This document shows, one piece after another, positions 2,932 through 37,482 of a DNA stretch of 64,000 nucleotides. The stretch covers positions 1 to 64,000 of the forward strand of contig NZ_MWWR01000018.1 of assembly GCF_002259605.1 (NCBI RefSeq), written 5' to 3'. The position numbers and the translations under genes were made by a program. A model generated the notes under the pieces. It saw only the letters and a list, made by a program, of their open reading frames with translations. It had not been told where the DNA came from and ran no database searches. Position 1 is the stretch's first letter. The number at the start of each line of letters is the position of its first letter. The DNA comes from Pseudoscardovia radai (GTDB lineage Bacteria > Actinomycetota > Actinomycetes > Actinomycetales > Bifidobacteriaceae).

Positions 2932-3177
2932 GAGGGTGCACGATTTTGCACCCTCAGCGGCGGTTACCTTGCTCAATTGTGGCTTTTCCCTACCTAATCC
3001 GCACCGAGGGTGCACGATGTTGCACCCTCGGCGGCGGAAAGGGTGGGTGCGGGGCTGTTTTGAGTGGGTAATCGCCTTCGAGGGTGCATGATTTTGCACC
3101 CTCGACCGCCAATAGGGCAGAGGGAGCCGTCGGCGGATGAGGCAATCCGCACCGAGGGTGCACAATCATGTACCCTC
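2932..3177. repeat. Family A hairpin array 1 (4 units, 74-bp period)
   Basis: Four cores start at 2932, 3006, 3080 and 3154, exactly 74 bp apart. Each is GAGGGTGCA, a 6-nt loop and TGCACCCTC (the last has TGTACCCTC), i.e. a perfect 9-bp stem. Linkers carry either C-rich or G-rich sequence. No open frame across the array has coding character. Confidence 0.9.
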
Positions 3178-4630: not shown

Positions 4631-6748
4631 CTACCAGATTCTCACGCGGCGGTCGGGGTCGAGCCACATGGCGTCGCCCGGCGCGGTGCCGAAGGCCTCA
4701 TGGAAGAGGTCCACGTTGCGCACGATTCCGTTGACGCGGAACTCGGCGGGGGAATGCGGGTCGATCTGGAGGAACTGCTCGGCCAGCTCGTTGCGGATCT
4801 TGGTGCGCCAGATCTGCGCGTAGCTCAGGAAGAAACGCTGCAGGCCCGTGAACCCGTCCATCACCGGGGCGTGGGAGAGGGCCGCGCGCACGGAATCCAG
4901 GCCGCCGTCCGCCGCGCCGAGCGACAGCGCATACGCCTTGAGCGCGATGTTCACGCCGCCCAGGTCACCGATGTTCTCGCCGATCGTCAACGCGCCGTTC
5001 ACATGCGGCGCATCGTCGGGCCTGCCCTCCTCCTCGTATTTCTCGCGCAGCTGCAGCGGAACGAACGAATCGTATTGCTCGATCAGCGTATGCGTGCGCT
5101 GATCGAAATTCGCGCGGTCCTGCGCCGTCCACCAATCGTGCAGGCGTCCGTCGCCGTCGTATTTGCTGCCCTGGTCGTCGAAGCCGTGGCCGATCTCGTG
5201 GCCGATCACCGCGCCGATGCCGCCGTAGTTCGCGGCGTCCTCGGCCTCGGGGTCGAAGAACGGCGGCTGCAGGATGGCCGCGGGGAACACGATGACGTTC
5301 AGAGTCGGCTCGTAGTACGCGTTGACGGTCTGCGGCGTCATAAGCCACTCGTCCTTGTCGACGGGCGTGCCGGCCTTGCTCAGCTCGTAGCCGTTCTCGT
5401 AGCGGTTCGCGGCGCGCATGATGTCGACGAGCGAATCGCCGTCGGCGACGCCGAAGGCCGAATAGTCGCGCCAATGGTTCGTGTACCCGATCTTCGGCTC
5501 GAATTTGTCGAGCTTCTCCAGCGCCTTGCCCTTCGTCTCCTCGCCCAGCCAGTCGCTGGCCTGGATCGAGGCGCGGTAGGCGTCGATGAGGTTGGCCACG
5601 AGCCGCTCGACGCGCTTCTTCGATGATGCGGGGAAGTGGCGGCGCACGTACTCGCGTCCCACGTCCTCTCCGCACACGCCGTCGACGAGGCCCACGGCGC
5701 GGCGCCAGCGCTCGCGCTGCTCCGTGGTACCGTGCAGGGTTTTGCCGTAGAAGTCGAAATGCGCCTGGTCGAAGGCCTTGTTCAGGTACGTGGACCACCC
5801 GATGAGCTCGTGGACGCGGGCCCACAGCTTGAGGTCGTCGAGCGTGGCCTCGCGCCAGAACGCGGCGATGCCGGTGATGAAGCTCGGCTGGTGCACGATG
5901 GTGTGGGAGAGCACGGCGCGCAGGTCCAGCGGCATGGCGCTCGCGGCGGCGGAGGCATCGTAGGCCTTCTGCCAGGCGTCGAGCCACGGGTCGATGTCGA
6001 AGCCGTCGAGTTCGGAGAGCAGCCTGTCGGCGTCATAGGGGTTGTACGTCTTGTCTTCGTCGCGGGAGCTGACGTTGTCCCAGTGGTTCGCGGCGATGCG
6101 GGTCTCGACGGCGAGGAAGCGCCTGGCGTCGTCCATGGCCTCGGCGGGGCTGGGTGCGTAGCCGGCGAGATGCAGCATCTGCGCCACCATCGACACGTAG
6201 CTGGAGCGCACCGGGGCGAAGCGCTCCTCGCGGTAGTAGCCTTCGTCCGGCAGGCCGAGGCCCCCCTGGAACAGATGCACCACGTTCGTGCCCGCGTTGC
6301 CCGGGTCGGAGTAGATGGCGACGCCGATCATGCCGGGGCCGCCGGAAACGGACAGACCGCCGAGCACCGCGTGCAGCGCGGCCTTGCTCGGCGCGTTGTC
6401 GATGGCGTGCAGGTCGTCGACGATGGGTGAGATGCCTGCCTCTTCGAGCGCGGCGGTGTCGAGGAAGGCGTCGTAGACGGTGCGGGACAGCGTGCACGGC
6501 GCGTCGGGGTCCTCGAGGATCTCGCGCAGCTGCGCCTCGGCGTCCTCGCTGAGCTTGTTGAACGATCCGTAGCGTGCGTGGTCGGCGGGAAGCGCGTAGG
6601 CGTCGATCCACGGGCCGTTGACGTAGCGGTAGAAATCGGAGGTCGGCGCGATAACCGATGAGAAAGCGCTGGCATCGATGCCGGAGGTCTGTGCTGCGCT
6701 CTCCCCGGAACCGGGAGTGCGCGAGGGGGTCATGGCTGATGTTGTCAT
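4631..6748 (-). CDS. pepO: M13-family (neprilysin/PepO-type) zinc metallopeptidase, 705 aa
   Basis: Endopeptidase that cleaves peptides of limited size; the bacterial PepO members are mostly cytosolic. Diagnostic features are HEIGHGFDDQG at about residues 515-525 (two zinc His and catalytic Glu), the NAYYEPTLNVIVFP substrate-binding stretch just before it, and GENIGDLGGV after it, which supplies the third zinc ligand Glu. The N-terminal PTSDFYRYVNGPWID block is the usual M13 amino end. There is no signal peptide or N-terminal anchor, which supports a cytosolic enzyme that recycles imported peptides. Length is normal for the family. The start at 6748 is the first ATG; an internal ATG five codons later is possible. 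Transcribed alone. Confidence 0.93.
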   Translation of the reverse strand: MTTSAMTPSRTPGSGESAAQTSGIDASAFSSVIAPTSDFYRYVNGPWIDAYALPADHARYGSFNKLSEDAEAQLREILEDPDAPCTLSRTVYDAFLDTAALEEAGISPIVDDLHAIDNAPSKAALHAVLGGLSVSGGPGMIGVAIYSDPGNAGTNVVHLFQGGLGLPDEGYYREERFAPVRSSYVSMVAQMLHLAGYAPSPAEAMDDARRFLAVETRIAANHWDNVSSRDEDKTYNPYDADRLLSELDGFDIDPWLDAWQKAYDASAAASAMPLDLRAVLSHTIVHQPSFITGIAAFWREATLDDLKLWARVHELIGWSTYLNKAFDQAHFDFYGKTLHGTTEQRERWRRAVGLVDGVCGEDVGREYVRRHFPASSKKRVERLVANLIDAYRASIQASDWLGEETKGKALEKLDKFEPKIGYTNHWRDYSAFGVADGDSLVDIMRAANRYENGYELSKAGTPVDKDEWLMTPQTVNAYYEPTLNVIVFPAAILQPPFFDPEAEDAANYGGIGAVIGHEIGHGFDDQGSKYDGDGRLHDWWTAQDRANFDQRTHTLIEQYDSFVPLQLREKYEEEGRPDDAPHVNGALTIGENIGDLGGVNIALKAYALSLGAADGGLDSVRAALSHAPVMDGFTGLQRFFLSYAQIWRTKIRNELAEQFLQIDPHSPAEFRVNGIVRNVDLFHEAFGTAPGDAMWLDPDRRVRIW

Positions 6749-7010
6749 GACACCAGCCTAGCCCGTGGCCCGTTCATTCGCCGTCGTTTTCGTCCCATAC
6801 GGCAGTGATTGCGCCGAGCGCGAAGGACGGCGCCGTGCGGGCTGTTTCGCGGCTGCGGGGCGGTCGGGAGTTCGCGGGGCGCGGGTATTGTGGTATGGCC
6901 GCGGTTCGCGTGCGGGATGGCCGTGGCCTGATTCCGCCGGGGCATCGCGGGCGCAATCGTGAAAACCACAATCGTGGAGACAACAACGCAGAAGCGGACG
7001 GAGGAGGACG
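6749..7010. other. Divergent intergenic region pepO/mntP
   Basis: About 260 bp between divergently transcribed genes. I looked for a manganese riboswitch of the yybP-ykoY type before the exporter gene and did not see its conserved loops. The ribosome site GGAGGAGGA lies just before 7011. Confidence 0.4.
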
Positions 7011-7742
7011 ATGGAAGGTTTGCTCAGTGCTTATGTGTGGCTGCTGGCGCTGTCGGTGTCGATGGACACCTTCGCCATGTCGATGTCGCTGGGCCTGCGC
7101 GCGGGGCATGTTCCCGAGCGGGGCTACGTGCGCACGGCCGCGGCGTTCGCCGGCATGCAGACGCTGTTCCTGTGGCTCGGTTCGCTGATCGGTGACGCGG
7201 CGGCGCCCTTCGTCGGCGGCACGTCCTGGGTGGTGTGCGTGCTTCTGGCGGGAATCGGCGCGTGGATGATTCATGAGGCCCTCGAGGACGAGGACGAGGA
7301 TGAGGTGGACGAGCGCGCGGAATCCGAGCAGACTCAGCTCGAATCCGAGGACCTCGACCGCAAACTCGCCGCCGAGATGCGCGAATACGCGGACAGGAAG
7401 ACGGGGAACGCCGCCGACGCGGCCGCCGACGAGCGCATCGTGGAGCAGCTCAGCGGGGAGCGGGAGGCCGCATCGCTGCGCGTGCGCTCCACCTTCGCGT
7501 GGAAGGTGCTTCTCACGCTCGCCGTGGCCGAGAGCATCGACTCCCTCGGCATCGGTGCGACGCTCGGCCTCGGGCGCACGCCGATGGCATCGTATGTCAT
7601 CGCCATCTTTGCCATGACCGCGCTGTCATGCGTCCTCGGCCTGCTGTTGGGTGGCAAGCTGGGGGAGAAGTGGAAGAAAGGCGCCGGCGTTCTCGGAGGC
7701 ATCATCCTCATTCTTCTGGGCATCCGACAGGTTATCGCGTAG
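7011..7742 (+). CDS. mntP: MntP-like manganese efflux pump with long acidic loop
   Basis: Six-TM inner-membrane exporter of the MntP/YebN family, expected to expel Mn(II). Hallmark Asp-containing helices are present in both halves: ALSVSMDTFAMSMSLG (residues 12-27) and LAVAESIDSLGIGATLGLG (about 170-190), which are pseudo-symmetric. The notable feature is the central loop at about 85-155, which begins EALEDEDEDEVDERAES and is much longer and more acidic than in the E. coli protein; it could be a cytosolic metal sensor or sink. GGAGGAGGAC precedes the ATG. Transcribed alone, divergent from pepO. Family assignment is firm; substrate specificity is from family knowledge. Confidence 0.87.
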   Translation: MEGLLSAYVWLLALSVSMDTFAMSMSLGLRAGHVPERGYVRTAAAFAGMQTLFLWLGSLIGDAAAPFVGGTSWVVCVLLAGIGAWMIHEALEDEDEDEVDERAESEQTQLESEDLDRKLAAEMREYADRKTGNAADAAADERIVEQLSGEREAASLRVRSTFAWKVLLTLAVAESIDSLGIGATLGLGRTPMASYVIAIFAMTALSCVLGLLLGGKLGEKWKKGAGVLGGIILILLGIRQVIA

Positions 7743-7937
7743 AGCGCCGTGCCCGCCGCGCAGGCCGCGGTGGGCGTTATGCGCCGCAACGGCCGCCGGC
7801 GCGGTATCCTTGGCCTATGAGCGGCGCACCGGTCAGCATGGGGCGCCGCAGAAGCCTTGGAGCGGGGCCCGGCGCCGGACGGTCGAACGTACCCGGCGCC
7901 GCGCGGCCACCGCGAATCCGAAAGGAAGAAGAAAACA

Positions 7938-8969: not shown

Positions 8970-10265
8970 ATGGCGGAAGCCAAACTCGAGATCGACTCCG
9001 AGAAGTACACGCTGCCGCTTGTCGAGGCAACGAGCGGTGCCAACGGCATCGTCGTCTCCAGCTTGCGCAACGACAAATGGGTGACCCTCGACCCGGGGTT
9101 CCTGACCACCGCGCAGTGCGAGTCGAAGATCACCTTCATCGACGGCGCGAACTCCATCCTGCGCTACCGGGGATACCCGATCGAGCAGCTGTGCGAGCAT
9201 TCGAACTTCCTCGAGGTCGCGTACCTGCTGCGCTCCGGCGAGCTGCCGACGCAGGAGCAGTACGACGCCTTCCGGTCGTCCATCCTGCGCCGCACGATCA
9301 TCGGCGAGGAATTCCGCACCTTCATCGGATCCTTCCCGCGCAACGCGCATCCCATGAGCGTCCTTGCCTCCGCGGTCAACGCGCTTGCCGCGTATTACCC
9401 GGACACCACCGACATCAACGATCCCGACCAGCTCGACGAGGCGTCGGCCATCATCATGGCCAAGACGCGCACCATCGTCTCGCTGATCCTGCGCCGCCGT
9501 CGCGACCAGCCGCTGCTGTACGCGGATGTCTCGCAGGGCTACGTCGACGACTTCCTGCGCATGTGCTTCTCGATGCCGTACCAGAAGTTCGAATCCGACC
9601 CGCTGTACGTGGACGCGCTCGACAAGCTGTTCATCATCCACGCGGACCACGAGCAGAACTGCTCCACGTCCGTCGTGCGCATCGCCGGGTCGGCGCACGC
9701 CAACCTGTACGCGGCCGTCGCCGCCGGCATCAATGCGCTGTCCGGGCCGCTGCACGGTGGGGCGAACGAGGCCGTGCTGCGCCAGCTCGCCGAGATTCGC
9801 GACTCGGGCAAGACCGTGCGCCGCTTCGTCGATGATGCCAAGGCCGAGAAGCGCCGCATTTCCGGGCTCGGGCACCGCGTGTACAAGTCGTACGACCCGC
9901 GCGCGGCCATTGCGAAGAGCTACCTCGAGAAGATCATGAACCGGCCGGGTGCTTCGCATACCGGCGGCGTGGACGAGCAGCTGTTCGACATCGCGCTCGA
10001 GCTGGAGGATATTGCGCTCAACGACGAGTACTTCGTCTCGAGGCACCTGTACCCGAACGTGGATTTCTACACGGGCCTCATCTACCGCGCCATCGGGTTC
10101 GATCCCTCGATGTTCACCACGCTGTTCGCGCTCGGGCGCATCCCGGGCTGGATTGCGCAGTACCGCGAGATGCTCAACGACCCGATGACCAAGATCGGCC
10201 GTCCGCGCCAGGTCTACACCGGCGTTCCCGTGCGCGACTACGTTCCCATCTCCGAACGCGCGTAG
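8970..10265 (+). CDS. gltA: Citrate synthase
   Basis: Condenses acetyl-CoA with oxaloacetate. The 431-residue length and N-terminal beta domain are those of the type II (hexameric, NADH-sensitive) form. Catalytic blocks: SGPLHGGANEAVLRQL (His), GLGHRVYKSYDPRA (His and Arg) and NVDFYTGLIYRAIGF (Asp and the FYTG signature). In bifidobacteria the TCA cycle is incomplete and citrate synthase serves the branch to 2-oxoglutarate and glutamate. AAGGAGGAATC precedes the ATG. The gene is monocistronic and ends in a strong terminator. Confidence 0.96.
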   Translation: MAEAKLEIDSEKYTLPLVEATSGANGIVVSSLRNDKWVTLDPGFLTTAQCESKITFIDGANSILRYRGYPIEQLCEHSNFLEVAYLLRSGELPTQEQYDAFRSSILRRTIIGEEFRTFIGSFPRNAHPMSVLASAVNALAAYYPDTTDINDPDQLDEASAIIMAKTRTIVSLILRRRRDQPLLYADVSQGYVDDFLRMCFSMPYQKFESDPLYVDALDKLFIIHADHEQNCSTSVVRIAGSAHANLYAAVAAGINALSGPLHGGANEAVLRQLAEIRDSGKTVRRFVDDAKAEKRRISGLGHRVYKSYDPRAAIAKSYLEKIMNRPGASHTGGVDEQLFDIALELEDIALNDEYFVSRHLYPNVDFYTGLIYRAIGFDPSMFTTLFALGRIPGWIAQYREMLNDPMTKIGRPRQVYTGVPVRDYVPISERA

Positions 10266-10283
10266 CTGCGGGGTTCGCGTGGG

Positions 10284-10325
10284 CGCCTTAGGTGTGTGCG
10301 ACAGCGCACGCCTAAGGCGTTTTTC
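10284..10325 (+). terminator. Rho-independent terminator of gltA
   Basis: Stem CGCCTTAGGTGTGTGC with GCGCACGCCTAAGGCG, small loop, followed by TTTTT. It starts about 18 bp after the gltA stop codon. Confidence 0.9.
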
Positions 10326-10362
10326 GTGGGTTGGGTTCGGTTGGGTGGCCGGAATGGCGTTC

Positions 10363-10468
10363 GGCGGGTGTGGTGGCACCCGTTTAAGGCGGTTTTGGGT
10401 TAGTTATTGACGATTTTCCTGCTGAGATGCTGTTAGGCGGGTGTGGTGGCACCCGTTTAAGGCGGTTT
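10363..10468. repeat. Family C hairpin pair (2 units, 73 bp apart)
   Basis: A 33-bp sequence starting GGCGGGTGTGGTGGCACCCG and ending TTTAAGGCGGTTT occurs at 10363 and again, identical, at 10436. Its core CGGGTG-6 nt-CACCCG is a short hairpin. The spacing matches that of families A and B although the sequence differs. Confidence 0.85.
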
Positions 10469-10525
10469 GTCCCGGGCGGAGACGGTGGGGAGGGGATTGC
10501 GAGCCGGGTGCCCTGCCCATTCACG

Positions 10526-10607
10526 AACAATGTGATGGGTTGCGGACATTTTCGGGGGATTTTGCGCCTTTGCGGGTCCGTTTTTGTCCGTAAGGCATCA
10601 CATTGTT
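10526..10607. promoter_or_regulatory. Long interrupted inverted repeat, 12+6 bp stem
   Basis: AACAATGTGATG at 10526-10537 pairs with CATCACATTGTT at 10596-10607, and CGGACA at 10543-10548 pairs with TGTCCG at 10585-10590, with symmetric 5-nt internal loops and a 36-nt apical loop. It could be a cruciform operator pair or a structured RNA. AACAATGTG recurs at about 16226, 85 bp before gabT. Confidence 0.6.
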
Positions 10608-10723
10608 ATTGGGGGAGGGGGCGCGTGATTGGAGCCGGCCACGGAGCGGGCCGCGGTGCTCGATTGAGCGCGGTGTCCGGCATGTGGAACGATGCGCGGA
10701 GTGGTGCGCGCTGCTTCAATCGT

Positions 10724-10739
10724 GGGGGAATCGTATGCC
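10724..10739 (+). promoter_or_regulatory. GGGRAWATCGTATGCC motif copy 1
   Basis: GGGGGAATCGTATGCC, about 700 bp before the cytidylate-kinase-like gene. Matches the 16-bp motif also seen upstream of gabT and, inverted, before the peptide permease gene at 39603. Confidence 0.35.
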
Positions 10740-11345
10740 AAAGTTTTCGCACGCCTTTCCGACACCCTTCCATCGTTTTTTCATTCGGCCTTCCGAACCG
10801 CCTCACGCACCGCCTTCCGCCTCGCCTCGCGTCGCTGCACGGTGCAACGGATTCTCCCACATGCCCCGGCGCGAATGTTACGGGTATGTTCCGCGCGCGT
10901 AATCGGCGCATGAATGGAGCGCAACCACACGAAATCTTTCGCTTTTATAACAAAAGACAGATTTCACAGGTCCTTCACCGGTCCACAAGACCGCATCGGA
11001 TACGCGGAGTCTGAACGTACATCCAGGACGTGCGACGCCCCGGGGAATGTACGGAATCGGCAGGTCGGATGCCCGCGCGCCACTCCCATCAGGCGCTCGG
11101 GCGGCAGTCGTCGCATGGGCTCGGGAAGCAGGAAGCCAGGAAGTGGTGGCTTCGTGCGTTCCGGGTTTCCACGATTTCCCCGACGATCACGGCATGTGAC
11201 GCCACGCCACATACGTGGCACCGTCATGTGCAGCCACGCGCACCGCGACACGCGCTGCACCCGCGCATCGCGCAGCCGCGCGCACGCGCGCCACCCGCCG
11301 CCCCATCGTTCCCTTCGCACGCGACGGCAACAGAAAGAGGTTCGT

Positions 11346-11441
11346 ATGAGATTCGCAGTCAACGAGGCCGCGGCGCAGGACGGCTGTCCCGCCGGCGCCG
11401 GCCGACGAAACGCCGGCTCCGTCAGGGAGGCGACACGATGA
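11346..11441 (+). CDS. Small upstream ORF (31 aa), translationally coupled
   Basis: ATG at 11346 follows AAAGAGGTTCGT, a plausible ribosome site. The frame encodes 31 residues (MRFAVNEAAAQDGCPAGAGR and on) and its TGA overlaps the ATG of the kinase-like gene as ATGA. The peptide is rich in Ala, Gly and Arg and has no known family. It may serve as a coupling or sensing leader peptide for the operon, or encode a real micro-protein. The tight overlap is what argues against chance. Confidence 0.4.
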   Translation: MRFAVNEAAAQDGCPAGAGRRNAGSVREATR

Positions 11442-12040
11442 AGTTCAACCCCGACCACATCATCATCACCATCGGATGCGAATACGGCGCCGGCGGCCCG
11501 CAGATCGGCAAGATGCTCGCGGATGCGCTCGGCATCGAATACTACGACCGCGACCTCGTCGACAAGGTCGTCAACCAGCTGGGCGTCAGCCGCGGCCTCG
11601 TCGAACAGGCGGATCAGAAGACGAACGTCCAGTACGCGTTCGAGACATCGCTCGGCCCGCGCTACGCGAACCTCAGCAACCGCGTCATCTTCACCCAATC
11701 CGAGGTCATCAACGACCTTGCCGAGAAATCGTCGTGCGTTATCATCGGCCGCTCCGCCAACTACCTGCTGCGCGGCCGCGACGATGTTCTCGACGTGTTC
11801 CTCTACGCGCCGAAGGACGTGCGCATCGAATCCATCATGGAGCAGGACCACGTCGACGCGAAGAAGGCCAAGGAAATCGTGGAGTACAACGACGAGCTCA
11901 ACCACTCGCGCCACAAGTACATCACGGGAACCCACCGCGGCGACCGCTCACAGCGCGACCTGCTGCTCGACACCAGCCTGCTGGGGTGGGACAAGACGGC
12001 GAAATATCTGCTGACGCTCGTCGAGATGCTGGGCGAATGA
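11438..12040 (+). CDS. Cytidylate-kinase-like family protein
   Basis: P-loop kinase fold of the cytidylate_kin2 type: the N-terminus IIITIGCEYGAGGPQIGKML carries the G-x4-GG-x-I/S-GK phosphate-binding loop variant of that family. Next come LADALGIEYYDRDLVDKV and CVIIGRSANYLLRGRDDVLDVFL, both typical. At 200 residues it lacks the full CMP-binding insert of true Cmk, so its substrate is unknown. Members of this family are repeatedly found beside amino-acid permeases and fermentation genes, and here it is 18 bp upstream of the permease fusion, probably in one operon with it. A regulatory or small-molecule kinase role for the transport module is inferred. GGGAGGCGACACG precedes the start. Confidence 0.75.
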   Translation: MKFNPDHIIITIGCEYGAGGPQIGKMLADALGIEYYDRDLVDKVVNQLGVSRGLVEQADQKTNVQYAFETSLGPRYANLSNRVIFTQSEVINDLAEKSSCVIIGRSANYLLRGRDDVLDVFLYAPKDVRIESIMEQDHVDAKKAKEIVEYNDELNHSRHKYITGTHRGDRSQRDLLLDTSLLGWDKTAKYLLTLVEMLGE

Positions 12041-12058
12041 CGGAAGGGGAGTGAGAAC

Positions 12059-14824
12059 ATGACTGACAAAAAGGAATCGGACTTCGACAAGGTCTTTAAC
12101 GTCTGGGATATCCTCGTCATCGCCTTCGGCGCCATGATCGGATGGGCCTGGGTGGTCTCGAGCGGCGACTGGATCGACCGCGGCGGCGTGATCGGCGCCA
12201 TGCTCGGCTTCGGCCTGGGCGGCATCATGATCTTCTTCATCGGCCTGACCTACGCGGAGCTCACGCCCGCCATGCCGGACTGCGGCGGCGAGCACGTGTT
12301 CAGCTACCGCGCCATGGGCCCGACCGGATCGTTCGTGTGCACGTGGGCCATCATCCTCGGCTACGTGAGCGTCGTGTGCTTCGAGGCGTGCGCCCTGCCG
12401 ACGATCGTCACCTACCTGTTCCCGAGCTTCCTGCAGGGCTACCTGTATACGGTCGCGGGCTTCGACATCTACGCGTCGTGGCTCGCCGTGGCCATCATCA
12501 TGGCCATCTTCATCACGTATATCAACATCCGTGGCGCCAAGACGGCGGCCATCGTGCAGACCGTGCTCACCTGCATCATCGGCGGCGCGGGCATCCTGCT
12601 CGTCGTCGGCTCGGTGATCAGCGGCAGCCCGTCCAACCTCGATGGCCAGGTCTTCGTGGGCGACAACACGGGCAGCGTGCTCGGCAACATCCTGCGCGTG
12701 GCCATGATGACCCCGTTCTACTTCATCGGCTTCGACGTGATCCCGCAGGCGGCCGAGGAGATCAACGTGCCGCTGAAGAAGATCGCGAAGATGCTCCTTC
12801 TGTCGATCCTCCTCGCCGTGGCGTTCTACGTGCTCATCATCTTCGCCGTCGGCTACGTGCTCAGCCCCGACGCCATCGCGCAGTCCGAGAGCTCCGGCAG
12901 CGGCCTCGTGACCGCCGACGCCATGGCCCGCGCGTTCCACACCGACGTCATGGCGAAGGTGCTGATCATCGGCGGCCTGTGCGGCGTCCTGACATCGTGG
13001 AACTCCTTCATGATCGGCGGCAGCCGCGCCATGTACTCCATGGCCGAGTCCTACATGATCCCGCCGGTGTTCGGCAAGCTCTCCGCCAAGTACAAGACCC
13101 CGTGGGTGTCCATCGGCCTCATCGGCCTGCTCAGCTGCCTCGCGCCGCTGCTCGGCCGCAAGATGCTCGTGTGGATCGTCGACGCCGGCAACCTCGCCTG
13201 CTGCGTGGCCTACTGCATGGTGGCGATCTCCTTCGTGATCCTGCGCAGGAAGGCGCCGGACATGCCGCGTCCGTACAAGGTCAAGCACTACAAGTTCGTG
13301 GGCTTCATGGCCATCGCCATGTCCGGCTTCATGGTGATCATGTACTGCATCCCCGGCAGCGCGGCGGCCCTGGTGCCGACCGAGTGGGCGTTCGTCGGCG
13401 GTTGGGCGCTGCTCGGCGTGATCTTCTACTTCGCGTGCAAGGCGCGCTATGGCAAGAAGTTCGGCACGCTCGTCGAGGTTGCGAACGACGAGCTTGACAA
13501 GGACTACGCCCGTGAGCGCTCCGCCGCCGCATCCATCGCGGCGGGCGAAGCCGCGAAGGGCGCTGGTGCTGGTGCTGCGGCTGCGGCTGCAGCCAAGGCC
13601 AAGGGCAAGGTTTCCACGATTGACCAGGCCGAGGTCAGCGCCGCGGTGTCGGCCGTCACATCGGCCGCCGCCACCGCCGGCGAGCCCGTGGCCCGCACGT
13701 TCAGCTACTATGCGCCGGTCAACCTCACCTTCGGCGCCGGCACGCTGGCGAAAACCGGCGAGCTGGCCAAGCCGCTCGGGTCCAAGGCGCTTATCGTGAC
13801 CGGCCATTCCAGCGCCAAGAAAACCGGCGTGTATGACAAGGTCAACGATTCGCTCAAGGCCGCGGGCATCGCGACCGGCCTGTTCGACAAGGCGTCGGCC
13901 AACCCGCTGACGACGACGGTCGAGGAGGGCGCCCGCGTTGCGAAGGACGGCGGCTATGACATGGTCGTCGGCCTGGGCGGCGGCTCGGTGATGGACTGCG
14001 CCAAGGGCATCGCGTTCATGGCGAAGAACGATGGCGACGTCAACGATTACATCTACGGGCGCAAGTCCAGCGATGTGGCGCTGCCGCTTGTGCTCATCCC
14101 CACCACCTGCGGCTCCGGCTCCGAGGCCAACGGCTTCGCGGTGCTCACGAATCCGGAGAACGGCGACAAGAAGTCGCTCAGGTGCCCGGCCATCATGGCC
14201 AAGCGCTCCATCGTGGACCCCGAGGCCATGATGACCATGCCCAAGGGCCAGCTTGCGGCGGTCGGCTTCGACGCCTTCTGCCACTGCTTCGAGGCCTACA
14301 CGGCCAAGAACGCGCAGCCGTTCACCGATGCGCTCGCCCTGTACGCCATCCCGCTTATCCTCGACAGCCTGCCGCGCCTCGTCGCCGGCACGGGCACTCT
14401 CAAGGACTGGGAGAACATGTCGCAGGCGGCCACGATCGGCGGCCTTGTGATCGGCACGGCCGGCATCACCCTGACGCACGCCATGGAGCACCCGGTTTCC
14501 GGACTCAAGAACGTGACGCACGGCAGGGGCCTGGCGGCCATCGCGCCGACCGTGGTGGAGGCCACGTGGCAGGGCGACCGCTTCAAGTTCGGCAGGCTGG
14601 CGCGCCTCATGGGCGGTTACACCGCGGAGGACTGCGCCGAGAAGATCCGTGGCTTCGAGCGCAAGATCGGGCTCGAGGTGACGCTCAGCGAGCTGGGCAT
14701 CAGCGAGTCGGACATCCCGTGGCTCACGGAGAACGCCATGAAGGTCTCCCAGGCCAATATCGACAACACGCGCACCGAGATCGGCGCGGAGGATATCTCC
14801 GAGCTGTACCGCAAGGCGCTGTGA
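12059..14824 (+). CDS. Fusion protein: APC-family amino-acid permease + iron-type alcohol dehydrogenase (921 aa)
   Basis: Residues 1-475 are a 12-TM APC-superfamily transporter: VWDILVIAFGAMIGWAW is the GAMIGxG-type helix 1, and GLTYAELTPAMPDCGG is the usual helix 2 end. Residues about 480-545 are an Ala/Lys-rich linker. Residues 545-921 are a complete group III (iron-containing) alcohol dehydrogenase: NAD-binding GLGGGSVMDCAKG near 640 and metal ligands Asp738, His742, His807 and His821, spaced 4-65-14 as in the family. No stop or frameshift separates the halves, and GGGGAGTGAGAAC precedes the ATG. With GabT downstream, the likely route is uptake of GABA or a similar omega-amino acid and reduction of its semialdehyde at the membrane. 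Substrate is inferred; both domain calls are firm. Confidence 0.88.
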   Translation: MTDKKESDFDKVFNVWDILVIAFGAMIGWAWVVSSGDWIDRGGVIGAMLGFGLGGIMIFFIGLTYAELTPAMPDCGGEHVFSYRAMGPTGSFVCTWAIILGYVSVVCFEACALPTIVTYLFPSFLQGYLYTVAGFDIYASWLAVAIIMAIFITYINIRGAKTAAIVQTVLTCIIGGAGILLVVGSVISGSPSNLDGQVFVGDNTGSVLGNILRVAMMTPFYFIGFDVIPQAAEEINVPLKKIAKMLLLSILLAVAFYVLIIFAVGYVLSPDAIAQSESSGSGLVTADAMARAFHTDVMAKVLIIGGLCGVLTSWNSFMIGGSRAMYSMAESYMIPPVFGKLSAKYKTPWVSIGLIGLLSCLAPLLGRKMLVWIVDAGNLACCVAYCMVAISFVILRRKAPDMPRPYKVKHYKFVGFMAIAMSGFMVIMYCIPGSAAALVPTEWAFVGGWALLGVIFYFACKARYGKKFGTLVEVANDELDKDYARERSAAASIAAGEAAKGAGAGAAAAAAAKAKGKVSTIDQAEVSAAVSAVTSAAATAGEPVARTFSYYAPVNLTFGAGTLAKTGELAKPLGSKALIVTGHSSAKKTGVYDKVNDSLKAAGIATGLFDKASANPLTTTVEEGARVAKDGGYDMVVGLGGGSVMDCAKGIAFMAKNDGDVNDYIYGRKSSDVALPLVLIPTTCGSGSEANGFAVLTNPENGDKKSLRCPAIMAKRSIVDPEAMMTMPKGQLAAVGFDAFCHCFEAYTAKNAQPFTDALALYAIPLILDSLPRLVAGTGTLKDWENMSQAATIGGLVIGTAGITLTHAMEHPVSGLKNVTHGRGLAAIAPTVVEATWQGDRFKFGRLARLMGGYTAEDCAEKIRGFERKIGLEVTLSELGISESDIPWLTENAMKVSQANIDNTRTEIGAEDISELYRKAL

Positions 14825-15020: not shown

Positions 15021-15452
15021 ATGCGTATCAAAGCAGCGGAACCGAACGATTTTCCCGAGGCGCTGCGCTTCATCCGCGCGCTGTGGGACTACAACGACTA
15101 CGAGGCCGGCCCCACGCGCGAGGTGTATGACCGCGTGCTCGCCGACGGGGAGAGCTTTGCGTTCTTTCTGCTCGACGATGGCGGGCGTTATGTGGGCATG
15201 TGCCACGGCGACTATTTCCAGACCTTCTGGATGTGCGGCCTGACGTGCTACGTCTCGAGCCTGATTGTGGATGAGCGCGAGCGCGGCAAAGGCTACGGCA
15301 CCATGATGCTCGACCATGCCCTCGAGCTGGCGCGGGCCCGCGGATGCCGCGCCGTGACCCTCGACTCCGGCCTGCCGCGCACCGCCGCGCATCGCTTCTA
15401 CGAAGGCTACGGTTTCGAGAAAAGCTGCTACGGCTTCGAGCTGAAGCTGTAG
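15021..15452 (+). CDS. GNAT-family N-acetyltransferase
   Basis: 143-residue single-domain acetyltransferase. The acetyl-CoA loop is VDERERGKGYGTMMLDHAL (R-G-K-G-Y-G, the Q/R-x-x-G-x-G/A signature) preceded by the beta-4 strand VSSLIV; motif B is HRFYEGYGFEKSCYGFEL, as usual for GNATs. The acceptor is unknown. AAAGGAGAACCG lies right before the ATG at 15021; the upstream open frame has no coding character. Its place between the permease fusion and the GabT-like gene hints at a role on an amine or amino acid handled by the same module, but it has its own gap on both sides and could be independent. Confidence 0.88.
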   Translation: MRIKAAEPNDFPEALRFIRALWDYNDYEAGPTREVYDRVLADGESFAFFLLDDGGRYVGMCHGDYFQTFWMCGLTCYVSSLIVDERERGKGYGTMMLDHALELARARGCRAVTLDSGLPRTAAHRFYEGYGFEKSCYGFELKL

Positions 15453-15527: not shown

Positions 15528-15849
15528 GAGGGTGCACGGGATTGCACCCTCGGCGGGGATTACCCTCCTCAAACCCGCTCTCACTCCGCCTAACCGCGGT
15601 CGAGGGTGCACGATTGCGCACCCTCGGCGGGGATTACCCTCCTCAAACCCGCTCCACTCGCTCCTAACTACGGTTGAGGGTGCACAATTCTGCTCCCTCG
15701 GCGGGGATTGGGGGGCGGGAAGCGGGGTGTTGGGGGAGGCTATCTGCGCTTGAGGGTGCACGGGATTGTGCCCTCGGTGGCGGATGGGTTGCCTGGGTGT
15801 GGCTTTGGGCGGGGTAATTGCGGTTGAGGGTGCGTGATTCTGCTCCCTC
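15528..15849. repeat. Family A hairpin array 2 (5 units)
   Basis: Cores start at 15528, 15602, 15676, 15752 and 15826 (74, 74, 76, 74 bp). The first two have near-perfect stems; the later ones are decayed on the right arm (TGCTCCCTC, TGTGCCCTC). It fills the gap between the GNAT gene and the gabT leader. Confidence 0.88.
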
Positions 15850-16312
15850 GGTGGCGGTTAGACGCGGGAAGCGCCTGTGCATTGACCGCCACCATCAGGA
15901 AATCGTCGAACTCCGCTGGAAAACAGCGCCGCATACGAACATCGCAGAATCGTGTATCCGCGGCGGCGTTCACACAGCGGACGCCCGGCACCCGGCGCGA
16001 ACCGCGCGCACGCGGGGGAGAACGGGAAAATCGTATGCCTTCCGCGCAGCCGCCGGTACAGCGGAAAGCCTTGCGAACAGGCGCCTTCCGGGGGTCCTTC
16101 GAAGCCGCCGCCGCGCGCACGCCTCCGCGCCGTTACGACACAAATGTTTCGGGTAATTCACGCCTGTTTCGGCAAGGAAACGACACCGTTTCGGGGAGGC
16201 GCAGGGAGGGCAATGCGCGGGTGGTAACAATGTGCTTGTCAGAAAAACGGCGACGAAATCCGAAGGATCGCGCCACCGTGGTTGCGAAATCACAAATCAA
16301 GGAGATACAGCG
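15850..16312. other. gabT leader region
   Basis: About 460 bp without a supported gene. It holds GGGAAAATCGTATGCC at 16024-16039, a short dyad GAAACG-ACAC-CGTTTC at about 16178-16193, AACAATGTG near 16226 (shared with the inverted repeat at 10526) and the ribosome site AAGGAGATACAGCG. Together these suggest dedicated control of the aminotransferase gene. Confidence 0.45.
16024..16039 (+). promoter_or_regulatory. GGGRAWATCGTATGCC motif copy 2
   Basis: GGGAAAATCGTATGCC, 290 bp before gabT. It matches 14 of 16 positions in the copy at 10724 and, inverted, 15 of 16 in the copy at 39558. Confidence 0.4.
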
Positions 16313-17677
16313 ATGACATTGGCTGAAGAGATGCCTCAGATTATCACTGAAAGCGTTCCGGGACCCAAGACCCAGGAGTTCCTGAAGAAGCGCAACGAGA
16401 ATGTGCCCGCCGGCCTGTGCTCTTCGACGTATCCGATCTGCATCAAGCGTGGCGAGGGCGCCATGTTCGAGGACATCGACGGCAACAAGTTCCTTGATTG
16501 GGTCGGCGGCGTCGGCGTGCTCAACATCGGCTACTCCCGCCCGGAGCTCGTCAAGGCCGTGCAGGACCAGGCGACCAAGTACTTCCACACCATCTTCAAC
16601 GTAATCGGCCATGAGGGTTACGTGGAGCTGGCCGAGGGTCTGAACGAGACGATTCCGTGTCGCGGCGAGCACAAGAAGACCTACTTCGCCAACTCCGGCG
16701 CCGAGTGCGATGAGAACGCCATCAAGATCGCCAAGGCCTACACCGGTCGCCAGGGTGTCATCTGCTTCTCCGGTGCATTCCACGGCCGCACCAACCTCAC
16801 CATGGCCCTCACCGCAAAGAAGGCCTACTCCCGCGGCATGGGCCCGTTCCCGGCCGACATCGCCCGCGCGCCGTATCCGTATCTGTACCGCGCTCCGAAG
16901 GGTTACTCCGAGGAGGAGGCCATCCAGTACTTCGTCGACGGCCTGAACAAGGTGTTCGACCAGGGCATCCCGGCGAAGGAAGTCGCCTGCCTGCTCGTCG
17001 AGCCGCTGCAGGGCGAGGGCGGCTTCATCCCCGCGCCGATCGAATGGGTCAAGGCCGTGCGCAAGATCTGCGACGAGAACGGCATCCTGCTCATCGCAGA
17101 TGAGGTTCAGTGCGGCAACTGCCGCACCGGCAAGTACTTCGCATCCGAGTACTGGGCCGAGGCGGGCGCCGCTCCGGATATCGTGACCACCGCGAAGTCG
17201 CTGGCCGGCGGCATGCCGATCTCCGCCATCACGGGTCGCGACGAGGTCATGGACGCCGCGCCGGCCGGCACGATCGGCGGCACCTTCTGCGGCAACCCGC
17301 TGTCCTGCGCATCCGGCATCGCCGCGATGAAGATCTACAAGGAAGAGGACTTCCCGGCCAAGGCCCGCCACATCGGCGAGATGGTGACCGAGGGCTTCCA
17401 GACCATGGCGAAGAAGTACTCCGTCATCGGCGATATTCGTGGCCTCGGCGCCATGATCGGCGTGGAGTTCGTCAAGGACCGCGAGACCAAGGAGCCGGCG
17501 ACCGAGCTCGTCGCGCGCCTCATCCAGGAGGCGCTGCAGCGCGGCCTGCTCATGGAGTCCGCGGGCACCGCAAGCAACGTCGTGCGCTTCCTCGCGCCGC
17601 TCGTCATGACCGACGAGCAGACCAAGCGTGGCCTCGAGATCTTCGAGGAGTCGCTCAAGGCGGCGCTCGCCGAGTAA
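16313..17677 (+). CDS. gabT: Class III aminotransferase, 4-aminobutyrate aminotransferase-like
   Basis: PLP enzyme that moves an omega-amino group to 2-oxoglutarate; GABA would give succinate semialdehyde. Class III signatures: YFANSGAECDENAIKIAK (cofactor phosphate), CFSGAFHGRTNLTMALT (aromatic ring contact), LLIADEVQCGNCRTGKYF with Asp263, and TTAKSLAGGMPISAI with the Schiff-base Lys295. Total 454 residues, normal for GabT. Ornithine, acetylornithine or beta-alanine aminotransferase remain alternatives, but the nearby permease and iron-type dehydrogenase favour GABA. Codon choice is slightly different from neighbours, with more NNT and NNC mixing early in the gene, perhaps from high expression. 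Expressed alone; array 3 follows. Confidence 0.85.
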   Translation: MTLAEEMPQIITESVPGPKTQEFLKKRNENVPAGLCSSTYPICIKRGEGAMFEDIDGNKFLDWVGGVGVLNIGYSRPELVKAVQDQATKYFHTIFNVIGHEGYVELAEGLNETIPCRGEHKKTYFANSGAECDENAIKIAKAYTGRQGVICFSGAFHGRTNLTMALTAKKAYSRGMGPFPADIARAPYPYLYRAPKGYSEEEAIQYFVDGLNKVFDQGIPAKEVACLLVEPLQGEGGFIPAPIEWVKAVRKICDENGILLIADEVQCGNCRTGKYFASEYWAEAGAAPDIVTTAKSLAGGMPISAITGRDEVMDAAPAGTIGGTFCGNPLSCASGIAAMKIYKEEDFPAKARHIGEMVTEGFQTMAKKYSVIGDIRGLGAMIGVEFVKDRETKEPATELVARLIQEALQRGLLMESAGTASNVVRFLAPLVMTDEQTKRGLEIFEESLKAALAE

Positions 17678-19430: not shown

Positions 19431-19825
19431 GAGGGTGCACGATTGTGCTCCCTCGGTGCAGGTTACCCTTCTTGAACCCGGTCTTGCCCCGCCTAACTCT
19501 GGTCGAGGGTGCACGGTTGTGCACCCTCGGTGGGAGTTAGGGCGATGGAAGGCGCTGGTGGGGAGGTTAATCGGGGTTGAGGGTGCACGATGGTGCGCCT
19601 TCGGTGGCGGATAGGTGGGTGGAAGAGACTCTGGGATGGGGTGATTGGTGTTGAGGGTGCACGATGGTGCGCCTTCGGTGGCGGTTAGTGTGCCGGGAGG
19701 CGCCGATGGTGGGGGTAATCGGGGTTGAGGGTGCGCGATGGTGCGCCTTCGGTGGGGGGTTGGGGTGCCGATTGGGGTTTGGCGGTGGGGTAATCGGGGT
19801 CGAGGGTGCAGTGTTGTGCGCCTTC
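19431..19825. repeat. Family A hairpin array 4 (6 units, strict 74-bp period)
   Basis: Cores start at 19431, 19505, 19579, 19653, 19727 and 19802. The second has a perfect stem; others have TGCGCCTTC right arms. Located between divergent dapD and prfB. Confidence 0.9.
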
Positions 19826-30881: not shown

Positions 30882-31863
30882 GAGGGTGCACGGAATTGCA
30901 CCCTCGACCCCAATTACTCTGCACAATCCCGGCTTTTCCCTGCCTAATCGGGGTCGAAGGTGCACGATGTTGCGCCTTCGGTGCGGGTTAGCCCATCTTT
31001 CCTTGGTCGATTCCTCCCTATCCCCGGTCGAGGGTGCACGATTTTGCACCCTCGGCGTGGGTTGGGTGGGGAGAAGGGGTGGCGGGGAAGGGTTATTGCG
31101 GTCGAGGGTGCGGGAATTGCTCCTTCGGTGGCGGTTAGAGGAGGAAAAGGGCTGTCAAGGCGAGGTATTTGGGGTCGAGGGTGCACAATCTTGCACCCTC
31201 GGTGCTGATTGCCTCACATTTCCTCAGCTTTTTTGCGCTAACGGTGGTCGAGGGTGCACGGAATTGCACCCTGGGTGCCGGTTACCCCGCTTAATTCCGG
31301 CTTTCCCCACCTATTCCCGTTCGAGGGTGTACGATTTTGCACCTTCGACGCGGGTTATCCCGTCTTTCTCTGGCCGATACCGCCCTAATCGGGGTCGAGG
31401 GTGCATGATTGTGCTCCCTAGCGCGGGTTGAGTAGGGAAGAGGGCTGTTGGGGTGGGGTATCTGGGGTCGAGGGTGCAGGGAATTGCTCCTTCGGTGGCG
31501 GTTAGAGGAGGAAAAGGGCTGTCAAGGCGGGGTATTTGGGGTTGAGGGTGCACGATGTTGCACCTTGGGTGCCGGTTACCTTGCCCGATCCCGGCTTTTC
31601 CTGGCCTAATTGGGGTCGAGGGTGCACGGAATTGCACCCTCGGCGTGGGTTGGGTGGGGAGAAGGGGTGGTGGGGAAGGGTAATCGTGGTTGAGGGTGCA
31701 CGATTGTGCTCCCTCGGCGTGGGTTGGGCGGGGAAAAAGGGTGGTGGGGAAGGGTTATTGCGGTCGAGGGTACATGATGTTGCACCTTGGGTGGCGGGTA
31801 CCTTGCCCGATCCCGGCTTTTCCTGACCTAATCGGGGTCGAGGGTGCACGATGTTGCGCCTTC
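30882..31863. repeat. Family A hairpin array 5 (14 units, 73-74 bp period)
   Basis: Cores start at 30882, 30956, 31030, 31104, 31177, 31250, 31323, 31397, 31470, 31544, 31618, 31692, 31766 and 31840. Stems range from perfect (30882, 31030, 31177, 31618) to decayed. Linkers share array-specific wording, for example CCCGGCTTTTCCYKRCCTAA and GGGGAGAAGGGGTGG. Confidence 0.92.
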
Positions 31864-36342: not shown

Positions 36343-37482
36343 AGGGTGCGCTCCTTCGGTGGCGGTTGCTTCTGGGGCGGTTACCTGTCCGGTTTCCCTA
36401 TTCTGATGCCCTATTCCCGGTCGAGGGTGCACGGTTGTGCGCCTTCGGTGGCGGTTACTTGTCCGATTCCCCCAATCCGCAGCCCTAATCCCGGTCGAGG
36501 GTGCACGGTTGTGCTTCTTTGATGGCGGTTAGGCGCGGTGTCGGCGGCTGTGTGGGTTGTAGTTGGGGTCGAGGGTGCACAAAAGTGCTCCCTCGGTGGC
36601 GGTTGCATGTCCGGTTTCCCCGATTTGGTGCCTTAACCCGGGTCGAGGGTGCATGATGGTGCTCCCTCGGTGGCGGTTATGGCGGTGTGGGGCTGTGTTG
36701 GTGGAGGTAATTGGGGTTGAGGGTGCAGGGTTGTGCTCCCTCGGTGGCGGTTGCCTGTCCGATTGGCTCTTTCCTAGGCCCTAACTCCGGTCGAGGGTGC
36801 ACGGGAGTGCTCCTTCGGTGGCGGTTGCCTATCCGATTTCCTCTTTTCCGGGCTCTAATCCCGGTCGAGGGTGCACGGTTGTGCTCCTTCGGTGGCGGTT
36901 ACCTGTCCGATTTCCCCAATCCGCAGCCCTAATCCCGGTCGAGGGTGCACGGTTGTGCTCCTTCGGTGGCAGTTAGGGTGGCGTGAGGCCGTGTTGGTTG
37001 GGGTAGTTGGGGTCGAGGGTGCAAGGTTGTGCGCCTTCGATGGCGGTTAGGGCAGCGGAGGGGCGTTTTCGTTGGGGTAATTGGGGTCGAGGGTGCACGG
37101 GAGTGCTCCTTCGGTGGCGGTTGCCTGTCCGATTTCCCCAATCCGCAGCCCTAATCCCGGTCGAGGGTGCACGGGAGTGCTCCTTCGGTGGCGGTTACCT
37201 ATCCGATTTCCCCAATCCGCAGCCCTAATCCCGGTCGAGGGTGCACGGTTGTGCTCCCTCGGTGGCAGTTAGAGTGGTGGAGGGGTGTTTTGGCTGGGGT
37301 AATTGGGGTTGAGGGTGCACGATGGTGCGCCCTCGGTGGCGGTTACTTGTCCGGTTGGCTCTTTCCTGGGCCCTAACTCCGGTTGAGGGTGCAGGGTTGT
37401 GCTCCCTCGGTGGTGGTTAGGGCAGCGGAGGGGTGTGTTGGCTGAGGTAATCGTGGTCGAGGGTGCACGATGATGCGCTCTG
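36343..37482. repeat. Family A hairpin array 6 (16 units, 74-bp period)
   Basis: Cores start at 36343, 36423 and then every 74 bp through 36497, 36571, 36645, 36719, 36793, 36867, 36941, 37015, 37089, 37163, 37237, 37311, 37385 and 37459. The first is shortened. Most right arms are TGCTCCTTC or TGCTCCCTC, so inner stems are decayed while outer arms (CCGCAGCCCTAA against TTAGGGCAGCGG) still pair. Linkers are of C-rich (CCTGTCCGATTTCCCCAATC) or G-rich form. Confidence 0.92.

Follow-up and report, generated by a model that had tools for sequence, protein, structure and literature searches.

An amino acid permease fused to an iron-type alcohol dehydrogenase in Pseudoscardovia radai and other gut anaerobes: a candidate module for reductive use of GABA or a close analogue

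The locus and the two halves of the fusion

The window, the whole stretch analyzed here, comprises the first 64,000 nucleotides of contig NZ_MWWR01000018.1 of Pseudoscardovia radai and contains one gene that encodes both an amino acid transporter and an alcohol dehydrogenase (ADH). That gene and the features around it are as follows.

11438..12040, plus strand: cytidylate-kinase-like gene (PF13189, E 4e-47; start codon set by eye), 18 bp ahead of the fusion gene
12059..14824, plus strand: permease-dehydrogenase fusion gene, 921 aa (one frame; Pfam AA_permease_2, Fe-ADH, and ADH_Fe_C; orthologs in the same frame)
12059..13447, plus strand: APC amino acid permease half, residues 1-463, with 12 predicted transmembrane (TM) helices (Pfam match at 13-446, PDB relatives, hydropathy)
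13448..13699, plus strand: Ala-rich linker, approximately residues 464-547 (composition, alignments, low pLDDT)
13700..14821, plus strand: iron-type ADH half, residues 548-921 (Pfam, motifs, AlphaFold2, Foldseek)
15021..15452, plus strand: GNAT acetyltransferase (Pfam), seen only in the Pseudoscardovia/B. thermophilum group
16310..17677, plus strand: GabT-like class III aminotransferase (PF00202, E 3e-117; E. coli GabT is the best PDB match)
2932-3177, 15528-15849, 19431-19825, 30882-31863, and 36423-37482: palindrome arrays (pattern count in the window)

The frame at 12059-14824 on the plus strand runs through 921 codons from ATG to TGA with no break and is preceded by a Shine-Dalgarno-like sequence. 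There is no strong internal start ahead of the ADH half, the one candidate, GTG codon 530, having a weak purine stretch. Pfam matches are nearly full length for AA_permease_2 (residues 13-446, E 2e-37), Fe-ADH (residues 553-721, E 4e-51), and ADH_Fe_C (residues 733-921, E 1e-39). Alanine makes up 45% of residues 490-545, and the linker stretch (470-547) ranges from 40 to 78 aa across orthologs. Both halves are under purifying selection (dN/dS 0.05-0.30), with the linker looser. Pfam, hydropathy, and composition thus bear out the initial annotation, which had described a single 921-codon frame with a 12-TM APC permease, an Ala-rich linker, and an iron-type ADH.

The permease half belongs to the APC superfamily (PF13520, 129 bits against a cut-off of 27, residues 13-446); hydropathy gives 12 peaks within residues 15-462, and its PDB relatives are the APC transporters 5oqt and 6f34 (E 3e-25). 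The ADH half carries both domains of the iron-containing alcohol dehydrogenase family (PF00465/PF25137), the NAD motif GGGSxxD at 640-646, and the Asp-His-His-His site, so that the ligands named earlier, Asp738, His742, His807, and His821, are all in place. It does not belong with AdhE, since a permease stands where AdhE would have its N-terminal CoA-acylating aldehyde dehydrogenase domain. In an AlphaFold2 model of the whole fusion, the linker and permease half are poorly modeled, with permease pLDDT below 50 in many stretches, while the ADH half has pLDDT mostly of 75-94 and matches iron-type ADHs with a Foldseek TM-score on the target of about 0.8-0.9.

Judged by profile scores, both halves are typical of their Pfam families, and neither reaches a specific equivalog. 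The permease half scores 56 of 678 bits on the GabP GABA permease equivalog (TIGR01773). The ADH half misses every NCBIfam equivalog cut-off, including those for 4-hydroxybutyrate dehydrogenase (NF058672, 181 of 500 bits) and the sulfoacetaldehyde reductase SarD (NF050025, 186 of 700 bits); the nearest model is ErcA, an ADH-like regulatory protein (NF041833, 235 of 550 bits), and this too is far under its cut-off.

Downstream of the fusion, at a distance of 1.5 kb, is gabT. Its product aligns over its full length with E. coli GabT (1sf2, E 7e-109) and carries the catalytic Lys and the substrate residues of a GABA aminotransferase: R141, E211, K268, and R398 are kept and I50 is replaced by V, positions whose functional meaning is known for the family. 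On the GABA aminotransferase equivalog (TIGR00700) it scores 475 of 506.65 bits, below the cut-off. The cytidylate-kinase-like gene is a near-constant neighbor of this permease across phyla, found in most related loci.

A 24-bp palindrome, GAGGGTGCA-N6-TGCnCCCTC, forms the five arrays in the window, repeated mostly every 74 bp; it has 62 matches (both strands counted) versus 0.01 expected. One array sits between the GNAT gene and gabT, and gabT may therefore not be cotranscribed with the fusion.

Spread, ancestry, and the Megasphaera variant

Of 188 Bifidobacteriaceae genomes, 13 carry the fused frame. Its Bifidobacterium carriers are B. apri, B. boum, B. thermophilum, B. merycicum, B. pongonis, B. 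erythrocebi, and B. moukalabense; the three sampled genus mates of the window genome all have it as well (82-93% identity). Outside this family, we found it in at least 14 of 397 sampled Lachnospiraceae genomes (counted as frames longer than 880 aa carrying both halves), in 5 of 17 Megasphaera-family genomes, and in 1 of 397 genomes of the Coriobacteriales order. The search in other genomes proposed earlier therefore returned more than 30 independent genomes, and the fusion is real, not an assembly error. The initial annotation had called such a fusion rare; uncommon it is, but it recurs among gut anaerobes. Viral contigs yielded no relative of the fusion, and plasmids no full-length fusion, the sole plasmid record spanning most of the query being one from Ilyobacter with three separate genes.

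The bifidobacterial fusions form two groups. A tree built from 26 intact fusions places group 1 (Pseudoscardovia, B. thermophilum, and their relatives) with one Lachnospiraceae set and group 2 (B. merycicum and its relatives) with another; uniting the bifidobacterial fusions in one clade is rejected (AU p 6e-5). Apparently, then, Lachnospiraceae passed the fusion to bifidobacteria two or more times, at least once to each group. The groups also differ in their aminotransferases. Group 1 has GabT orthologs (92-100%) and lacks the ArgD-like aminotransferase AmtB; group 2 has AmtB, 76-77% identical to a Lachnospiraceae reference, and lacks the GabT ortholog. More broadly, AmtB, which is ArgD-like and not GabT-like, occurs in B. 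merycicum-group, Lachnospiraceae, and Megasphaera genomes, and GabT in Pseudoscardovia/B. thermophilum. A class III aminotransferase of one kind, the other, or both stands beside the permease in nearly every locus with enough flank. The commonest order is AmtB, the cytidylate-kinase-like gene, permease, and ADH; one Lachnospiraceae locus (L174) runs from AmtB through the kinase-like gene and the fusion to GabT, with about 0.17 kb between the last two.

In most Lachnospiraceae loci with an unfused permease, an ADH gene of another type (ADH II) follows. In the ADH tree, all fused dehydrogenases, those of Megasphaera included, form one clade (100/97) together with an unfused gene (ADH type I) from the locus L059, apart from both the ADH II genes and the hydroxybutyrate dehydrogenases. 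This one clade makes a single origin of the permease-ADH pairing the simplest account. We had considered two separate fusion events, for the intact and the Megasphaera dehydrogenases, which are only about 32% identical, and rejected them given that the Megasphaera half falls inside the same clade, although long branches make its exact position there unsure. The permease tree, which held one misread row (L114) and was used only loosely, would allow later fission or replacement of the fused halves.

The Megasphaera fusions gave the most unexpected result of the analysis. Frame and predicted fold are kept in all five (L038 9992-12610, L039, L061, L114, and L115), as are the linker and the beginning of the ADH half, and all five have lost the four metal ligands and the NAD motif. 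Asp738 is replaced by T or A, His742 by Q, E, or K, His807 by E, A, or K, and His821 by P, D, or Y, while GGGS has become GGND, GGNT, or GGSE. Between the more distant species, the ADH half is 36-43% identical and the permease half 84-85%; in close pairs, dN/dS of the ADH half is 0.11-0.19. A model of this half has the Fe-ADH fold (pTM 0.81, Foldseek TM 0.7-0.8), a prediction to be read with caution given that the AlphaFold2 input alignment included intact relatives. To judge from these substitutions, the Megasphaera ADH half is a fused pseudo-dehydrogenase, which suggests that the fused domain can serve a noncatalytic purpose, perhaps transporter pairing or sensing. If these halves are as dead as their residues imply, catalysis would not be the sole reason for keeping the fusion everywhere, and they offer a natural experiment on noncatalytic roles of a fused enzyme. 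One of the five genomes (L061) has an unfused and a fused permease copy about 2 kb apart (6275-7831 and 10001-12571).

A candidate route and its alternatives

On balance, we think it probable that the fusion is a membrane-anchored module through which an omega-amino acid is used reductively, GABA (4-aminobutyrate) or a close analogue being the likeliest substrate. To judge from its family and gene neighbors, the permease half would take in the amino acid; a separate class III aminotransferase, GabT in the window genome and AmtB in relatives, would pass its amino group on to 2-oxoglutarate, so that glutamate and a semialdehyde form. The ADH half, which the Ala-rich linker would keep at the cytoplasmic face, would then reduce the semialdehyde with NAD(P)H to a hydroxy acid, for example, 4-hydroxybutyrate, which would probably be excreted. 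The cell would gain nitrogen, re-oxidize NADH, and clear a reactive aldehyde where the substrate enters. The ADH half would probably dimerize via its N-terminal strands, as its relatives do, and so pair two permeases.

The initial annotation had already proposed that the dehydrogenase acts on an aldehyde derived from the amino acid taken up. The constancy of the class III aminotransferase neighbor makes that a good guess, but we infer the substrate, the direction of the reaction, excretion, and any advantage of tethering enzyme to importer. The suggestion of GABA and succinate semialdehyde is reasonable: gabT lies near the fusion both in the window (1.5 kb) and in L174, and permeases homologous to this one share operons with gabT and a hydroxybutyrate dehydrogenase. 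Ilyobacter has the permease, gabT, and 4-hydroxybutyrate dehydrogenase as separate genes, a Eubacteriaceae MAG (L083) has separate gabT, hydroxybutyrate dehydrogenase (hbd), and permease genes, and L059 carries permease, gabT, and ADH type I one after another as separate genes. Regeneration of NAD+, also proposed earlier, would follow from the known chemistry of iron-type ADHs. On a Klebsiella plasmid, a class III aminotransferase is paired with an ADH that shares 42% identity with the window ADH half. The initial annotation did not include the logic of the neighboring aminotransferase, the distribution among gut bacteria, or the Megasphaera fusions whose ADH half is, by sequence, catalytically dead.

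The conventional fermentation of GABA via 4-hydroxybutyryl-CoA can be set aside for this organism, as its genome (about 92% complete) holds no candidate for 4-hydroxybutyryl-CoA dehydratase of the HpaB family; a hydroxy acid would thus probably leave the cell. One aldehyde dehydrogenase of the host, closest to succinate semialdehyde dehydrogenase (SSADH) though under the cut-off, makes an oxidative branch possible for the semialdehyde. Several results count against a GABA module: the window GabT and the ADH half both score below curated equivalog cut-offs, the Megasphaera fusions are without ligands, and glutamate decarboxylase was found in no sampled group 1 genome. It is encoded in all six group 2 bifidobacterial genomes, a link that kinship alone could explain. 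Two of the fusion-bearing bifidobacteria, B. merycicum and B. moukalabense, are listed as carrying GadB/GadC, the genes for making GABA (PMC7445748).

A different substrate handled by the same mechanism is possible, if clearly the less probable reading: taurine, beta-alanine, or 5-aminovalerate would be turned into isethionate, 3-hydroxypropionate, or 5-hydroxyvalerate. AmtB resembles ArgD rather than GabT and may act on another amino acid, given that some Lachnospiraceae with gabT and hbd (L058) also have AmtB-permease-ADH II as a seemingly separate module. Among structures, Cvir-Hbd2 comes closest to the hbd enzymes found in sister operons, and TauF of B. kashiwanohense, a metal ADH, reduces sulfoacetaldehyde within a taurine transamination cluster (PMC6616044). 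In L066 (9926-15475), a 62% permease homologue adjoins genes that by eye resemble D-proline reductase subunits and a proline racemase, hinting at 5-aminovalerate or proline as the substrate in that branch. However, GabT-type aminotransferases and hydroxybutyrate dehydrogenases recur beside this permease family, and the ADH half has a low SarD score (186 of 700 bits) and only 26% identity to TauF (6jko).

The Megasphaera fusions raise the question of whether the ADH half is mainly regulatory or dimerizing, so that binding of NAD(H) or aldehyde, or the pairing of transporters, would gate uptake and catalysis would be secondary. The loss of ligands and GGGS in all five while frame, linker, and predicted fold persist fits such a role, as does the low dN/dS of close pairs despite the divergence between species, and the nearest profile model, ErcA, though far under its cut-off, is that of a regulatory protein. 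Yet the four ligands and the NAD motif are identical in all 26 non-Megasphaera fusions checked, as expected only if catalysis matters, and most Lachnospiraceae loci keep a dedicated ADH gene after the unfused permease; we regard a mainly regulatory half as distinctly unlikely. One can also envision, with somewhat less reluctance though still as an unlikely case, a catalytic ADH half that doubles as a redox- or aldehyde-sensing gate of the importer; in Megasphaera only sensing or pairing would remain, as a pseudo-enzyme that regulates its transporter covalently.

Antiporters such as GadC belong to the APC transporters, and the Fe-ADH reaction is reversible. It is conceivable, but very improbable, that the ADH works oxidatively or that the permease is an exchanger, bringing in an amino acid and releasing hydroxy acid or glutamate, with the ADH setting the exchange. 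Without an HpaB-family candidate in the genome, any hydroxy acid made would have to leave, which would suit an exchanger; sequence evidence for exchange is absent, and fermenting bifidobacteria need to re-oxidize NADH rather than to make more of it. Finally, a sequencing or assembly artifact joining two genes has a negligible chance: relatives do have adjacent unfused permease and ADH genes, but the same unbroken frame in more than 30 independent genomes, isolates included, with differing linkers, rules out both a frameshift artifact and a chance fusion.

Should the GABA-type reductive module prove correct, it would be a compact, testable case linking uptake to metabolism in gut bacteria, probably a route that consumes GABA or similar amino acids and excretes a hydroxy acid.

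Comparison with known systems

Transporter-enzyme fusions are a known kind of protein; an importer covalently tied to a redox enzyme of the same pathway is seldom reported. Among open-licence papers, we found no description of a permease-ADH fusion, and searches there on the conversion of GABA to 4-hydroxybutyrate in gut bacteria yielded nothing useful. Fusions of SulP transporters with carbonic anhydrase link a secondary transporter to an enzyme on the cytoplasmic side whose substrate is related. These resemble the present gene in joining transporter to enzyme but involve unrelated families and no redox step.

Unfused Lachnospiraceae pairs, for example in Blautia (L040) and Fusicatenibacter (L048), have AmtB, the cytidylate-kinase-like gene, a permease about 70% identical, and an Fe-ADH directly downstream of it. 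They differ in that the genes are separate and the dehydrogenase is an ADH II from another clade, about 33% identical.

In chemistry, the proposed route resembles taurine nitrogen assimilation in B. kashiwanohense, which uses an aminotransferase and a metal-dependent ADH (PMC6616044). There, in the TauF cluster, an omega-amino compound is transaminated for nitrogen, the aldehyde is reduced by the ADH, and the hydroxy compound is thought to be excreted (PMC6616044). TauF differs in being a free soluble dimer with Gln for one His ligand (PMC6616044), has no fused transporter, and is about 26% identical to the ADH half.

All three functions also occur in the operon of Ilyobacter polytropus (NC_014633.1 731544-735599), with a homologous permease of 53% identity, a GabT of 44%, and an iron-type ADH. 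Unlike in the fusion, these are three separate genes, and the hydroxybutyrate dehydrogenase belongs to another ADH subfamily (24%).
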